Below, in pieces: positions 32,369 through 37,440 of a stretch of DNA of 64,000 nt. The DNA is from Sphingomonas lacunae (GTDB lineage: Bacteria; Pseudomonadota; Alphaproteobacteria; Sphingomonadales; Sphingomonadaceae), in contig NZ_CP053015.1 in assembly GCF_012979535.1 (NCBI RefSeq), forward strand, positions 2,356,001 to 2,420,000, given 5' to 3'. Each line of letters starts with the position of its first letter. Position 1 is the stretch's first letter. A model generated the notes under the pieces. It was not told the origin of the DNA. It saw only the letters and a list, made by a program, of their open reading frames with translations, and did not search any database. Both the position numbers and the translations under genes were made by a program.

Positions 32369-32872
32369 ATGAAAATGGTCAGAATGGCTTTGGCGGGGTT
32401 GGTGCTGTGCGGGTTGCTGGTTCAGCCGGTGCAGGCGCAAATGCATCCGCTCAATGGCGCAACAACCGTAACCGCTCGCGGAGCAGAGGTGCGTGCCACG
32501 CTGCGGCTTGCACTTGGCAGCCGGGCGCAAGTGCGACGAGATCGGCAGCCGATTCGCCTTGAGCTGATGGCCGGGCCCAATATGCGTGTCGCCGACGGCG
32601 CGCCGATCGGCAGGACAGCCGTGCTGGGTGGTGACGGCGTCCGGTTCAGCTTTTCGCCCGGCCATTCGGCTGAAGTTGCGCTAGCCGGCGTCCCCGTTTT
32701 CACTCGCTATGCCAATGCCCGGGTTGCCGCTGCAGAGAATGCAGAGCAGGGAGGCGGGGTCAACGGATGGGCAATCGCCGGCGGGGCCGTCCTGATTGGA
32801 CTGGGCGTCGCCTTTCTGGCGTTGGAAGACGCGATCGATTGCAATGAGAATGGCGATTATGTTTGCGAATGA
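32369..32872 (+). CDS. Exported hypothetical protein with C-terminal transmembrane helix
   Basis: 167 residues if started at 32369 (MKMVRMALAG), just after a run of Gs; an open frame reaches back to 32285, overlapping the J-domain gene stop. A signal peptide (MALAGLVLCGLLVQPVQAQ) is followed by a beta-rich region, then a hydrophobic helix near the end (WAIAGGAVLIGLGVAFLALE) and an acidic tail. I do not recognise the family. Confidence 0.6.
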   Translation: MKMVRMALAGLVLCGLLVQPVQAQMHPLNGATTVTARGAEVRATLRLALGSRAQVRRDRQPIRLELMAGPNMRVADGAPIGRTAVLGGDGVRFSFSPGHSAEVALAGVPVFTRYANARVAAAENAEQGGGVNGWAIAGGAVLIGLGVAFLALEDAIDCNENGDYVCE

Positions 32873-32905
32873 CGCCGGCATCGATTGACGCGCGATTGGA
32901 GCCTT

Positions 32906-33316
32906 TCAGGCGTAGCGATTGGCTGTTTCGCGGATCAGGGCGATCATGTTGGGGATACCTTGCGTCCGGTTGGACGACAATTGCCTGGTCAGATCAAAGG
33001 GCGCCAGTTCCGCTGCAATGTCGGTTGCCAATATGGCGGCTGGCTCGCGATCCTGCACTGCGATCAGTACGAGTGCGATGATGCCTTTGGTAATGGCGGC
33101 GTTGCTGTCTGCCAGAAAATGGAGCCGGCCATTGTCGTTGCGGACCGGATAGACCCAAACCGATGCCGAACATCCGCGCACGAGTGTGGCATCGGTCTTC
33201 AGCGCATCGGGCATGGGTTCAAGGCTACGGCCGAGATCTATCAACAGTCGATAGCGATCATCAGCGTCGAGGAAATCATATTCCTCTGCGATTTCAGAGA
33301 GAGTCGTGGCGGTCAT
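32906..33316 (-). CDS. sufE: SufE family sulfur acceptor protein
   Basis: 136 residues. The active Cys is in LVRGCSASVWVYP; HFLADSNAAITKGIIALVL and LSSNRTQGIPNMIALIRE are the other SufE motifs. SufE takes persulfide from the cysteine desulfurase SufS and passes it to the scaffold SufB in iron-sulfur assembly. It sits alone here; no suf genes are adjacent. It lies 72 bases downstream of the psp small-gene array on the same strand. Confidence 0.95.
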   Translation of the reverse strand: MTATTLSEIAEEYDFLDADDRYRLLIDLGRSLEPMPDALKTDATLVRGCSASVWVYPVRNDNGRLHFLADSNAAITKGIIALVLIAVQDREPAAILATDIAAELAPFDLTRQLSSNRTQGIPNMIALIRETANRYA

Positions 33317-33353
33317 GCCGGGCCTATAGCCGCTGCGCTCCCCTTACGTCACC

Positions 33354-33375
33354 CCCGCCGCTGATGGGCGGCGGG
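33354..33375. terminator. GC-rich hairpin between the psp array and sufE
   Basis: CCCGCCGC (33354-33361) pairs with GCGGCGGG (33368-33375), loop TGATGG. It sits 14 bases past the last psp-array gene on the minus strand. No T run follows, so partial termination or mRNA protection are both possible. Confidence 0.4.
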
Positions 33376-33388
33376 CACGTCACCGGGT

Positions 33389-33646
33389 TTAGAGATCGAC
33401 TCCTGCGGCAATGGCTTCGAGTTTGCGCAGCCGCTCCCGAAGATCGGCAATCTCTATGCGGCTGGCGGTGTCCTGGCTGCTTCCAGAGGCGTCGCCCCGC
33501 ACGTGGCCGGCACCAGCATGTTCAATCTCGAACCGTTTGAGATTGACCCAGTCACGCCAGCCATTGAGCGCCACAAGGCTCATGACGGCAACTGACAGAA
33601 AGCCGAGCGAAGCCGATGTCAGATAGAGCATCTGGTCAGTCATCAT
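33389..33646 (-). CDS. Small membrane/coiled-coil protein, fourth of the psp-linked array
   Basis: 85 residues; the ATG overlaps the upstream gene stop (ATGA). One hydrophobic helix (LYLTSASLGFLSVAVMSLVAL), then GWRDWVNLKRFEIEH and a short C-terminal coiled segment IADLRERLRKLEAIAAGVDL. It is the most divergent of the four and lacks the LAxEIxxLR ending, but keeps the helix-plus-RxRLxxLE plan of PspB. Probably last gene of the psp transcript. Confidence 0.65.
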   Translation of the reverse strand: MMTDQMLYLTSASLGFLSVAVMSLVALNGWRDWVNLKRFEIEHAGAGHVRGDASGSSQDTASRIEIADLRERLRKLEAIAAGVDL

Positions 33647-33933
33647 GCATCTCCCTTGGGAAAATCCGCGCGCGGTGCATCGGGCAGGGCGCGCAGGGCA
33701 TCAATTTCATCGGCAATAGCGGTGCCGCGATCGGTGAGAATACGTTCCAATACCCGTACCCGATGTTCGAGTCGTTCGACATGGGCCGCATATTGCGCTG
33801 ATTTTTCAGCGGTCAGTTCCGACTGCCTTTCGAGCTGTCGCTCCTTGAGATCGATCCAGCGTTTCCAGGCGGCGAACAGCATACCAAAAATCGGAATCGA
33901 CAGGGCCAGGATCGGGATGAAAAGCGGGCTCAT
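33643..33933 (-). CDS. Small membrane/coiled-coil protein, PspB-like, third of the array
   Basis: 96 residues from ATG 33933. An N-terminal helix (LFIPILALSIPIFGMLFAAW) is followed by a long charged helix and the motif LEHRVRVLERILTDRGTAIADEIDALR, which matches the C-termini of the two upstream genes and of PspC. The heptad-like RVRVLERI also resembles PspB's RMHTVERIV. No family name can be given beyond PspB-like. Confidence 0.7.
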   Translation of the reverse strand: MSPLFIPILALSIPIFGMLFAAWKRWIDLKERQLERQSELTAEKSAQYAAHVERLEHRVRVLERILTDRGTAIADEIDALRALPDAPRADFPKGDA

Positions 33934-33955
33934 GCAGGCGTCCTCATATTGGCGT

Positions 33956-34273
33956 TCAATTGGCAGGACCGCGAAGGGCCTCGATCTCCGCTGCGAGATG
34001 GACCCCGCGATCGGTGACGATGCGCTCGACATTGGCGAGACGATCCTTGATTGAACCGAGCTCAGCGCGAAGCTGCGCATTTTCCTGGGTCAGCAACTTG
34101 ATCCGCTCGCCCTCGTCGTTGCGCATCGGGTAGAGGGACTGACCCCAAGCGCCATCGAGCGGGTAGCCATTTTTCACCCGGAGCCAGGTGGTGAACACCC
34201 ACCCCACCAGTCCGATAACGCCCAAGATGGCGATGGTTGGTGCCATGGCTTCAAAAAATGCCAGCTTGTCCAT
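33956..34273 (-). CDS. Small membrane/coiled-coil protein, PspB-like, second of the array
   Basis: 105 residues from ATG 34273. A helix (IAILGVIGLVGWVFTTWLRV) is followed by NGYPLDGAWG, closely matching HGYPLEDEWG in the upstream gene, then LLTQENAQLRAELGSIKDRL and VERIVTDRGVHLAAEIEALR. The pair are clear paralogues. An open frame six codons longer is possible. Confidence 0.72.
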   Translation of the reverse strand: MDKLAFFEAMAPTIAILGVIGLVGWVFTTWLRVKNGYPLDGAWGQSLYPMRNDEGERIKLLTQENAQLRAELGSIKDRLANVERIVTDRGVHLAAEIEALRGPAN

Positions 34274-34307
34274 TGCAACTCTCTCTTTCACCCGAAGTGC
34301 GGCTTGG

Positions 34308-34595
34308 TCAGCGCAGATTCTCGATTTCCTCGGCGAGGCGGGTCGACTTGTCCGTGGCGATACGCTCCAGCACAGCGACGCGTTCCTCGATCCGCAGCAG
34401 CTTGCCCTTCAATTCGGCATTCTCCTGGCTCAACAGGTCGATCTGGCGGTTATCGGGCAGGCTTGGCCTTTCAGTCTTGCCGCCCCATTCGTCTTCCAGC
34501 GGATAGCCATGACGGGCGCGTATCCAGTTGTTTACCAGCCAGCCGACAGTGCAGAGCAGCACGATGGCAACAACCATTGAAGGTCCTTCAAACAT
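34308..34595 (-). CDS. Small membrane/coiled-coil protein, PspB-like, first of the array
   Basis: 95 residues from ATG 34595 (AGGAGA eight bases upstream); a second ATG at 34577 with GAAGGA is also good. Hydrophobic helix MVVAIVLLCTVGWLVNNWI, then ARHGYPLEDEWG, then the coiled segment LLSQENAELKGKLLRIEERV and VLERIATDKSTRLAEEIENLR at the very end. It lies 26 bases after pspC in the same direction. Confidence 0.72.
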   Translation of the reverse strand: MFEGPSMVVAIVLLCTVGWLVNNWIRARHGYPLEDEWGGKTERPSLPDNRQIDLLSQENAELKGKLLRIEERVAVLERIATDKSTRLAEEIENLR

Positions 34596-34621
34596 GGGTC
34601 TGGTCTCCTGTGACTGAGTGA

Positions 34622-35002
34622 TCAGCGAAGGCTGTCGATTTCGTCGGCCAACCGCTTGTTCCGGCTGGTGTAAAACAGTTCGATGTCGGCAAGGCGACGG
34701 TCAATGTCGCGGAAACTGGCGCGGACATCACGGGTCGATCGGGCAGGGTTGGCGCGGACACCCTGCCAGAAACGCTGCTCTTCCGGACCTGCATAGAGGT
34801 CACGTGGCTTGGGTTGGGCAAACCAGCCGGCGCAGACATAGGCTATCAACGTCCAGGGAAATCCGCCCATCAGGGTGAGCAGCACCATCGCTACACGAAC
34901 CCAGACCGTATCGATGCCGGTATAGTCCGCGATACCCGAGCAAACGCCCATCCATTTGGCATTCTGCTTGTCGAGATAGAATTGGGTGCGGCGTGCAGAC
35001 AT
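34622..35002 (-). CDS. pspC: Phage shock protein C
   Basis: 126 residues from ATG 35002, one base after the pspB stop. The PspC domain is FYLDKQNAKWMGVCSGIADYTGIDTVWVRVAMVLL with a membrane helix LLTLMGGFPWTLIAYVCAGWF. With PspB it senses inner-membrane stress and releases PspF from PspA. The C-terminal tail RRLADIELFYTSRNKRLADEIDSLR shares the motif found in the small genes downstream. Confidence 0.92.
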   Translation of the reverse strand: MSARRTQFYLDKQNAKWMGVCSGIADYTGIDTVWVRVAMVLLTLMGGFPWTLIAYVCAGWFAQPKPRDLYAGPEEQRFWQGVRANPARSTRDVRASFRDIDRRLADIELFYTSRNKRLADEIDSLR

Positions 35003-35003
35003 C

Positions 35004-35285
35004 TCAGTTGCTCCTGTCTTTGCGATAGTCGAGCCGCGGTTCATCATCGCGTTCGGATCTGATGGCCGGGCGCCAGTCGGGATTGTCGGCGGCAACGATC
35101 CGCTCAACGGTGTGCATGCGGTCTTCGAGGCGACGGGCGAGATCATAGAGATCCTCTAGCAGCCGTTCATCCTCTACCGGCAGCGTCGCGGCACTCTTCC
35201 ATTTCGTGACATAATGGAGGATCAGCCAAGGCAGGCCGACAAACAGCATGCCAACGACCATGACGGGTCCGAGTACATCTTCCAT
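35004..35285 (-). CDS. pspB: Phage shock protein B
   Basis: 93 residues. The N-terminal helix (GPVMVVGMLFVGLPWLILHYVTKWK) and the following amphipathic LEDLYDLARRLEDRMHTVERIVAADNPDWR match PspB; the final WR is conserved. Inner-membrane partner of PspC. It is five bases after pspA and one base from pspC. Confidence 0.93.
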   Translation of the reverse strand: MEDVLGPVMVVGMLFVGLPWLILHYVTKWKSAATLPVEDERLLEDLYDLARRLEDRMHTVERIVAADNPDWRPAIRSERDDEPRLDYRKDRSN

Positions 35286-35289
35286 GGGA

Positions 35290-35958
35290 TCAGCCCTCCC
35301 GCTTGGCGGCAGCAGCTTTCATGGCCGCCAGTTCTTCTTCGATTGAATCCTCAGCGCGCAGATCGGCGAACTCGTCCTCGAGCGTGCGCGGTTGGCCGAG
35401 GTTCAGGGCGTCGGCGCGGCCTTCCGCGTCATCAACCCGGCGTTCCAGATCGTCGAACCTGGAAAAGGCTTCCTGCACGCGCTCACCATTGGTCAGCTCA
35501 CGCAAGCGGATCTTGTTCTCCGCTGATTCCAGACGGTTGGAGATGCTGGTCTGTCGCGTGCGCGCTTCCCGCAGCTTGGCCTGCAATTTGGTGATGTCAT
35601 CCTCATACCCGCGCAAGGCTTCGTCGAGCACAGCGATTTCGCCTGTCAACCGTTCCGCCATCTCACTGGCTTTGCGCTTTTCACCCAATGCTGCTTTGGC
35701 CAGATCCTCACGGCCCTTGGACAAGGCCAGTTCGGCCTTTTCATGCCAATTGTCCTGGAGTGCTTCGAGCTTGGAGATGTGCCGACGCATTTCCTTCTGG
35801 TCGGCGATGGTCCGGGCGGCGGACGCGCGCACCTCGACCAGCGTTTCCTCCATTTCGAAAATGATCATGCGGATCATCTTGGCCGGATCTTCCGAACGGT
35901 CGAGAAGATCGGTCACATTGGCGGCAACGATGTCACGGGTTCGTGAAAAGATGCCCAT
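35290..35958 (-). CDS. pspA: Phage shock protein A
   Basis: 222 residues from ATG 35958 (MGIFSRTRDIVAANVTDLLD), with GGAGAAAAAA upstream. A coiled-coil protein of the PspA/IM30 family; the N-terminal amphipathic helix and EDPAKMIRMIIFEMEETLVEVR are typical. PspA inhibits PspF in quiet cells and coats damaged inner membrane under stress. First of the pspABC genes, 140 bases after the small ORF at 36099. Confidence 0.96.
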   Translation of the reverse strand: MGIFSRTRDIVAANVTDLLDRSEDPAKMIRMIIFEMEETLVEVRASAARTIADQKEMRRHISKLEALQDNWHEKAELALSKGREDLAKAALGEKRKASEMAERLTGEIAVLDEALRGYEDDITKLQAKLREARTRQTSISNRLESAENKIRLRELTNGERVQEAFSRFDDLERRVDDAEGRADALNLGQPRTLEDEFADLRAEDSIEEELAAMKAAAAKREG

Positions 35959-36098
35959 GATTTTTTCTCCTTTTGGCCCGCGGGGGGCTTGCGACGCTGT
36001 CTGTATCGGGAAAGGGCGGGAAGGAACGGGTGGAAAAAAGTGGTGCCGGGGCAGGGCAAGGGGGGGGAAGTGCCCCGGCACCACATCGGCCAGGCGGG

Positions 36099-36272
36099 TC
36101 ATGCCAGGCCGGCTTTTACTCCGACAGCCACCAGGAGGGCAGCCGAAGGAGCGGGAAGGTCGGGCCGAAAGGACTGGTTCATGCCCAACACCAGCGGGAT
36201 CAGCAGCATCACGGCAGCGATGCTTGCCTGTGTTGCACGAAGGGTGGTGGCGGTCATGGTCATCATCCTCAT
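36099..36272 (-). CDS. Possible small membrane protein at the head of the psp operon
   Basis: Up to 57 residues; ATGs at 36272, 36266, 36263 and 36257 are all possible. It lies exactly between the sigma-54 promoter (expected RNA start about 36287) and pspA, so it must be transcribed with the operon. One hydrophobic stretch (ASIAAVMLLIPLVLGM) follows TATTLRATQ, and the end is LLVAVGVKAGLA. It could be a real Psp-associated peptide or a chance frame in the leader. Confidence 0.45.
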   Translation of the reverse strand: MRMMTMTATTLRATQASIAAVMLLIPLVLGMNQSFRPDLPAPSAALLVAVGVKAGLA

Positions 36273-36298
36273 CGGAATATGTCGTTCGAAACATGTAT

Positions 36299-36315
36299 CG
36301 CAGGAACTGTGCCAA
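36299..36315 (-). promoter_or_regulatory. Sigma-54 promoter of the psp operon
   Basis: On the minus strand the sequence is TTGGCACAGTTCCTGCG: GG at -24 and GC at -12 with exactly ten bases between, matching the YTGGCAC-N-TTGC consensus. It faces pspA and lies between pspA and the divergent pspF, whose product is the cognate activator. Confidence 0.9.
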
Positions 36316-36326
36316 TTTCGCGAAAT
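36315..36326. promoter_or_regulatory. Palindrome adjoining the -24 box
   Basis: ATTTCGCGAAAT is a perfect 12-base palindrome touching the upstream edge of the sigma-54 promoter. Its half-site GAAAT resembles the two upstream GAAATTTC elements, so it may be a third, weaker binding site or a repressor site. Confidence 0.4.
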
Positions 36327-36366
36327 CCCGAAAATCTGCGGTTTCGATGAAAGTGTGACGGCTGAG

Positions 36367-36401
36367 TGGGAAATTTCGCTTGCCTTTGGTTGGGAAATTT
36401 C
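36367..36401. promoter_or_regulatory. Two PspF enhancer-like sites
   Basis: TGGGAAATTTC occurs at 36367-36377 and again at 36391-36401, 24 bases apart, each containing the palindrome GAAATTTC. They lie about 55-85 bases upstream of the -24 box and just before the pspF start, as expected for the tandem upstream activating sites of PspF, which would also allow pspF to regulate itself. Confidence 0.7.
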
Positions 36402-36414
36402 ACCATCTATTGGG

Positions 36415-37440
36415 ATGCAACGCGAAACTCGCTTCGTCGGCCAATCCAGCGCCTTTCTCGACAGTGTCGAACGGGCAACCTCTGCCGCTCTGCTGCACCG
36501 TCCCGTTTTGGTGATTGGTGAGCGAGGCACGGGCAAGGAATTGATTGCCGAGCGTTTGCATCGCCACAGCAACCGCTGGTCCGGACCGCTGGTCACGATG
36601 AACTGTGCAGCGCTACCCGAAACACTCATTGAGGCTGAGCTTTTCGGCCATGAAGCCGGTGCCTTTACCGGTGCCACGCGCGCGCGACCCGGCCGCTTTG
36701 AAGAGGCTGACGGCGGTACTTTGTTTCTTGACGAACTGGCCACCCTGTCGACCGCTGCACAGGAGCGGCTGTTGCGGGCTGTGGAGTATGGCGAAGTCAC
36801 GCGGATAGGATCGTCAAAGCCGCTGCGGGTGGATTGCCGGATCGTGGCGGCGACCAACGAACATTTGCCGGACTTGGTCGCACGAGGGAAATTTCGTGCC
36901 GATTTGCTCGATCGCCTGTCGTTTGAAGTGATAACCTTGCCGCCGTTGCGGGCCCGCGAGGGAGATATTGCCGTGCTGGCTGAGCATTTTGGCCAGCGGA
37001 TGGCAGCCGAACTCGGGTGGAGCATGTGGCCCGGTTGGGGTCCGCAGGCATCTGCATTGCTCGAAGCGCATGACTGGCCGGGCAATGTGCGGGAATTGCG
37101 CAATGTGGTCGAGCGGGCGGTCTATCGCTGGCCGGCACCGGACAAGCCGGTCAATGAGATCACATTTGACCCCTTTGCCAGCCCCTGGGCGCCGCAGGGC
37201 AGCGGATCGCGAAAGGTCACCGGAGACGGAAATGCATCGCCGGATGCCAAAATCGTGCCCAATCCATCGGCCTCGCCTTTGTGCTCTGATTTGAAGGCAA
37301 CAGTTGACGCTTATGAGAAGTCGCTGATTGAAGCGGCCTTCGCGCGTTGTCGCTACAACCAGAGGGCAACGGCCACGGCGCTCGGTCTGACCTATGACCA
37401 GCTTCGCCATGCGATGAAGAAGCACGGGATCGGCGCCTGA
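36415..37440 (+). CDS. pspF: Psp operon transcriptional activator PspF
   Basis: 341 residues from ATG 36415. No receiver domain; the AAA+ domain starts at once (Walker A VIGERGTGKELIAERLH). GHEAGAFTGAT is the loop that contacts sigma-54, and GGTLFLDELATL is Walker B. The C-terminal Fis-type HTH is NQRATATALGLTYDQLRHAM. PspF activates the sigma-54 promoter of the divergent psp operon and is held back by PspA. Confidence 0.95.
   Translation: MQRETRFVGQSSAFLDSVERATSAALLHRPVLVIGERGTGKELIAERLHRHSNRWSGPLVTMNCAALPETLIEAELFGHEAGAFTGATRARPGRFEEADGGTLFLDELATLSTAAQERLLRAVEYGEVTRIGSSKPLRVDCRIVAATNEHLPDLVARGKFRADLLDRLSFEVITLPPLRAREGDIAVLAEHFGQRMAAELGWSMWPGWGPQASALLEAHDWPGNVRELRNVVERAVYRWPAPDKPVNEITFDPFASPWAPQGSGSRKVTGDGNASPDAKIVPNPSASPLCSDLKATVDAYEKSLIEAAFARCRYNQRATATALGLTYDQLRHAMKKHGIGA

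Follow-up and report, generated by a model that had tools for sequence, protein, structure and literature searches.

To our knowledge, the mechanism by which PspB and PspC sense stress is unsettled, and the psp locus of Sphingomonas lacunae raises a related question: what are the four small genes behind pspC (O1 to O4, hereafter referred to as the array), and what might their products add to the Psp system? We analyzed the locus in a window of 64,000 nt, the whole stretch of DNA under study, from a genome of 2.98 Mb on a single contig. The Yersinia PspB and PspC proteins assemble into a membrane complex with off/on switching, and the cytoplasmic C-terminal domain of PspC binds PspA in the ON state, so that PspF is freed (PMC5596341).

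Layout of the psp locus in Sphingomonas lacunae

The genes on the minus strand are ordered pspA, pspB, pspC, O1, O2, O3 and O4, followed by a sufE-like gene (Table 1). Gaps are short (26, 34, 22 and -4 nt for pspC-O1, O1-O2, O2-O3 and O3-O4, respectively), sufE lies 72 nt downstream of O4, and the coordinates place neighbouring array genes in different reading frames. Each of O1-O4 has a single hydrophobic helix at the N-terminus and, besides it, a charged one. An earlier sequence-only reading had described four tight minus-strand genes of 85-105 codons downstream of pspABC, each with an N-terminal membrane helix and a charged helix; the coordinates and lengths were right, and the motifs quoted with them are all present. 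The divergent ORF on the plus strand is one that we take to be pspF from its appearance and position.

Table 1. Features of the psp locus in the S. lacunae window
Feature	Position	Strand	Description
sufE-like gene, array boundary	32906..33316	minus	PF02657 117.2 bits
O4	33389..33646	minus	85 aa; final array gene; one TM helix; C-terminus KLEAIAAGVDL; at most a distant member by profile
O3	33643..33933	minus	96 aa; TM + helix, VLERILTDRGTAIADEIDALR; weak PspB match (TIGR02976 E 0.006)
O2	33956..34273	minus	105 aa; TM + NGYPLDGAWG + helix, VERIVTDRGVHLAAEIEALR; TIGR02978 positions 84-121, E 0.011
O1	34308..34595	minus	95 aa; TM + HGYPLEDEWG + helix, VLERIATDKSTRLAEEIENLR; TIGR02978 positions 84-121, E 0.037
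pspC	34622..35002	minus	126 aa; tail DIELFYTSRNKRLADEIDSLR; TIGR02978 118.8 bits (cut-off 104)
pspB	35004..35285	minus	93 aa; TIGR02976 85.7 bits (cut-off 51.7)
pspA	35290..35958	minus	222 aa; TIGR02977 278.8 bits (cut-off 242.95)
Leader ORF	36100-36257	minus	52 aa; one hydrophobic segment; between sigma-54-like site and pspA
Sigma-54-like -24/-12 site, TGGCACAGTTCCTGC	36300..36314	minus	pattern match, 356 nt upstream of pspA
ORF, putative divergent pspF	35989..37440	plus	listed ORF extends upstream of likely start near 36410

Distribution of the array

The gene order was pspB-C-O1-O2-O3-X-O4-sufE in all 29 congener loci examined (L005-L033; 34 congeners had a match), where X is a fifth gene (MGPFEMVVGIV...VLERIATD...EIEKLRD). 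Whole-genome profile searches did not find X in S. lacunae, where O3 and O4 overlap. Hence, the description of the array as four genes holds for this genome but not for its relatives. O3 was matched in 34 of 35 same-genus genomes, the sole miss being a genome 85% complete.

We further examined the DNA around pspC in 60 genomes picked by pspC rather than by the array. They were drawn from genomes whose PspC place was listed, each genus being represented by one or a few, and three of the regions (L073, L083 and L086) are cut by contig ends. A script assigned the start codons of the relatives' genes, and the group labels O1-O4 and X were assigned from the best profile scores. Array genes were present at every one of the own family's 34 pspC loci, which span 27 genera (167 genes in total), with 3-8 genes at 33 loci and one gene at the other. 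O3 was found at 33 of the 34 loci, X at 31, O2 and O4 at 30 each and O1 at 17, and both the copy number (1-8) and the order of the genes varied. The survey thus places the array beside pspABC in the sampled relatives; the absence from close relatives that the sequence-only reading had named as refuting was not observed.

None of the 21 loci from five sister families (f2, f3, f5, f6 and f7) carried array genes (genus profiles, E ≤ 0.01), and at 8 of the 21 no more than 700 nt separate pspC from the end of a sufE-like ORF, an arrangement resembling a pre-array state. Four of five loci in family f8 had one X/O3-like gene and a second, tailless pspC, and the fifth had neither. At L089, L091, L092 and L093 of this family, the short tailless PspC lies directly behind pspC and is followed by the single X/O3-like gene, with the PspC domain and the tail apparently divided between two proteins. 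Among the loci sampled in the order, apart from the single f8 genes, the array was confined to one family, Sphingomonadaceae in the broad sense. At L081, one of the 21 sister-family loci, an extra PspB-scoring gene follows pspC on the same strand (1934-2158), which is perhaps a separate PspB duplication.

In a sample of 299 genomes from across the phylum, an X-like profile (E ≤ 1e-5) matched 27, and the own family accounts for 13 of these. Copies of such genes in psp operons occur in some contigs titled Gammaproteobacteria or Sedimenticola, but many relatives from outside the family are not located near psp. The neighbours of these relatives give no functional clue, because ten such loci had, besides the relative itself, no gene common to more than three, and the sigma-54-like site was absent from their 10 upstream stretches. 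In an Emcibacter MAG (L094, 5001-5267), an rpoD-like gene, in which Pfam finds Sigma70 regions, precedes the relative by 23 nt.

Operon structure and tie to pspA

Across the 34 family loci, 66 of the 167 array genes overlap the preceding gene, and 158 of the 167 gaps are ≤ 50 nt. Among 149 genomes of the family, 134 had both array and pspA, 9 had neither, 3 had the array only and 3 pspA only (Fisher test, P = 6e-10, without correction for shared ancestry). Two of the three array-only genomes (G514, G554 and G562) are less than 90% complete, and 9 of the 12 genomes without array matches also had no PspC match (E ≤ 1e-8). The three pspA-only genomes are G544, G559 and G575, the last with a contig that ends at pspC. 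In G544 (L205), pspABC adjoins sufE and the array is absent, and in G559 (L206), pspABC is kept with the array reduced to O4. The array is thus dispensable in G544 and G559, where pspABC stands without all or most of it.

A sigma-54-like site was found within 700 nt upstream at 51 of the 67 loci with pspA and enough upstream DNA, and none was found within the 34 arrays. In the window itself, the sigma-54 pattern had one minus-strand match (Table 1) and seven plus-strand matches, so that a single match can arise by chance. A pattern scan of 32850-36450 gave no match for a sigma-70-like promoter, and between pspC and O4 the array strand showed nothing resembling a terminator.

Two further observations concern the psp region and genome. 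Several named loci have a leader TM ORF similar in size to the 52-aa ORF in Table 1, often with an LA end; the S. lacunae ORF had no phmmer match in the named loci and might encode another small member of the Psp system. In addition, the S. lacunae genome has a second PspC-like place (TIGR02978, 2 matches).

Tail motif common to O1-O3 and PspC

The C-termini of O1-O3 follow (V/L)ERIxTD-x4-(L/I)xxEI(E/D)xLR, in the same register as the PspC tail both here and in E. coli, whose PspC C-terminus (MERYVTSDTFTLRSRFRQL) has the same spacing and matches O1-O3 without gaps. O1 and O2 also have (H/N)GYPL(E/D)xxWG in common, and O4 is without the tail motif and ends in LEAIAAGVDL. It had been noted correctly that three of the four genes end in a motif like the PspC tail, and that the first two share a second one.

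From these same sequences we derived the tail pattern [VLIM]E..[ILVAFY]T[DES]x4[LVAITM]x3[IF]xx[LM]. It was matched by 4 of the 570 stop-to-stop ORFs of the window, namely PspC, O1, O2 and O3, and by E. coli PspC; no match was found in O4, window PspB or E. coli PspB. Among the non-O4 array proteins of the 34 family loci, 105 of 137 matched (mean of 200 residue shuffles, 0.0), including 19/20 of O1, 30/31 of O2, 49/54 of O3 and 7/32 of X. Counts for whole proteins of the other groups were 0/30 for O4, 42/90 for PspC and 0/89 for PspB.

Kinship with PspB and the PspC tail

Profile-profile comparison returned probabilities of 98-100 for O1, O2, O3 and X among themselves, 73-96 for these groups with the PspC tail and 52-93 with PspB, as against ≤ 21 for eight PspA-window controls. 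Reversed-profile controls gave ≤ 5 for PspB with the array groups and 1-24 for the PspC tail with O1, O3 and X; since reversed O2 still gives 62-68, the pair of O2 and the PspC tail is unsafe if judged by this comparison by itself. Neither the PspC tail nor PspB detected the other (only 1.5-17). O4 reached 78-88 with O3 and X, 2-18 with O1 and O2, and ≤ 5 with PspB and the PspC tail; judged by its profile, it is at most a distant member of the array family.

Whole-genome ranking is stronger evidence of kinship than the profile-profile scores. An array profile of 20 relatives' proteins had seven places in the 2.98-Mb genome at E ≤ 10, in the order O2, O1 and O3 (E 1.6e-27 to 7.1e-17), the PspC tail (0.021), O4 (0.026), one stray (0.74) and, seventh, PspB (3.84). 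Profile A2 was made from outside-family relatives; its 20 rows were chosen by hand, two from a set of 4 single genes and 18 from a further 28. In the four genomes with a known pspC place (nine were searched), its first match below the family members lay near pspC, directly before the gene in G039, G045 and G092 (E 3.5e-4 to 0.0013) and at the pspC tail in G048 (E 0.14). Profile A4 comprised 20 of 38 proteins drawn randomly from the 137 non-O4 ones (the first of each group, one X skipped), and it finds kin in the family genome sample because it consists of array members.

Matches to curated models were also compared. Outside-family relatives matched TIGR02978 in 17 of 20 cases (best 3.2e-6) and TIGR02976 in 13 of 20 (best 2.2e-10) at E ≤ 0.01, and array proteins matched them in 10 of 20 and 8 of 20 cases, respectively, at E ≤ 0.05. 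The O1-O4 proteins of the window score far under the curated PspB and PspC cut-offs: O3, the best of them for PspB, had 16.8 bits with TIGR02976 (cut-off 51.7) and 13.6 with PF06667 (cut-off 25.6), O1, O2 and O4 had no match to these two models, and none of the four matched the PspC domain (PF04024) in a scan at E ≤ 10. Among structures, no solved PspB was found at E ≤ 1, the PspC search returned two weak, unrelated-looking matches, and the X-like profile matched generic coiled coils in the PDB; generic coiled-coil matches also came from Pfam.

Taken together, these profiles make it well supported that O1, O2, O3 and X are kin to each other and, detectably, to PspB and the PspC tail, and part of the likeness could be that of generic coiled coils. 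Of the PspB-like ancestry proposed earlier, the mutual kinship and a PspB signal above controls stood, but the psp protein of this genome nearest to the array profile is the PspC tail; the likeness of O1, O2, O3 and X to PspB, the PspC tail and each other does exceed the PspA-window controls and, apart from O2 with the tail, clearly exceeds the reversed-profile controls, so that the lack of profile similarity named as refuting by the sequence-only reading was not observed either. The Pfam and NCBIfam matches obtained included no model dedicated to the PspB/PspC-tail family.

Evolutionary history

A tree of 202 proteins (95 columns; 20 single rows reduced to 16 by name clashes) was poorly resolved, with 103 of 199 inner branches open. 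The labels O1, O2, O3, X, O4 and single changed 9 times on it, against a shuffled mean of 123, although part of this clustering is built in because the labels derive from profile scores. O4 formed one clade (support 99), as did 34 O2 rows including S. lacunae O2 (support 99). The data support related genes standing head to tail behind pspC, in old paralogue groups, and mostly kept or lost with pspA. The simplest history is one X-like psp-operon gene, copied before the family radiated, with gains and losses thereafter. The best candidate for the ancestor is the PspB/PspC-tail-like family of other Proteobacteria, which occurs there in one or two copies within or outside psp operons.

Possible roles of the array proteins

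We give an even chance to the reading that a PspB/PspC-tail-like gene of the psp operon underwent an ancient tandem expansion throughout the family and that the resulting array supplies docking helices, whose partners we infer. The array proteins would be single-pass inner-membrane proteins with a cytoplasmic second helix; the C side of the TM segment is the more positive one in 151 of 167 (hydropathy is weak in 4 of 167), and a predicted O2 model, which shows layout only, has helices H2-35 and H53-100 (pLDDT 79, pTM 0.33). They would presumably be made together with PspABC from the sigma-54/PspF promoter. By analogy with PspC, each could offer an extra PspC-tail-like helix, with O1-O3 carrying the PspC-tail register on separate TM anchors of their own, and the proteins may pair mutually and with PspB, PspC or PspA through the same coiled-coil exchange. 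PspA recruitment and PspF release might as a result be tunable, or be fed by several different membrane segments.

Instead of signalling through PspF, the array might be an effector scaffold, in which hetero-oligomeric inner-membrane coiled coils hold PspA at sites of damage or stiffen the membrane. The many tightly linked paralogues fit this idea, as do the variable membrane segment of O2 with its conserved part behind and the protection against secretins by PspB and PspC alone (PMC5596341). However, what is conserved at the end resembles the tail of PspC, described as the PspA-binding regulatory domain; a double role is still compatible with this, and we hold a pure scaffold to be possible but rather unlikely.

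A more elaborate form of sensing is a doubtful prospect: the five conserved groups, with their differing membrane segments, might compete for PspA and turn the PspBC switch into one with multiple inputs, each group, O4 excepted, reporting a different inner-membrane disturbance via the common PspC-tail helix. It is improbable that the array proteins are decoys that occupy PspB or the PspC tail, keep the system OFF and raise the induction threshold. They do have the PspC-tail register without a PspC domain, but the array seems to lie behind the same sigma-54-like site and would rise on induction, so that a brake on a strong response fits better than a resting lock. Least credible, and by a long way improbable, is that unrelated small TM and coiled-coil proteins merely sit beside psp with a generic motif, as the weak single-sequence scores, the generic coiled-coil matches and the reversed-profile scores of up to 68 could suggest, given the rankings in the own and other genomes, the joint loss with pspA and the restriction of the tail pattern in the window to psp and array genes.

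Comparison with known systems

Returning to the docking-helix reading, the array proteins resemble several known Psp components. Like PspB (TIGR02976/PF06667), they are small, single-pass proteins of the psp operon with an N-terminal TM segment and a helix with (V/L)E(R/S)I, but the second half of their tail follows PspC, and a true pspB is present besides the array. O1-O3 have the same ungapped register as the PspC tail (TIGR02978 positions about 84-121), whereas O1-O4 are without the PF04024 domain and the array tail has its own TM anchor. PspD, in the psp operon of E. coli, is likewise encoded by a small gene directly after pspC, a likeness of size and position.

The nearest published parallel is in PMC11237479, one clause of which notes that the operon can contain duplicates of PspB as well as a PspC fusion with a divergent PspB. 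These duplicates are, like the array, extra PspB-like units in pspFABC operons, and the example AOL22920.1 may be of the array kind; the passages concerned are without the 3-8-gene array, its paralogue groups, its family-wide spread and its joint loss. No description of the array was found in searches of an open-access library. The sequence-only reading had known of none either, which stands for the array itself but not for PspB duplicates as such. The array provides 3-8 natural versions of a PspC-like tail, each with a TM anchor of its own, and together with the natural losses (G544, G559 and those joint with pspA) these would allow the function of the tail to be tested in environmental bacteria. 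Members of the family may thus have a set of exchangeable components with which to detect membrane damage or mend it.
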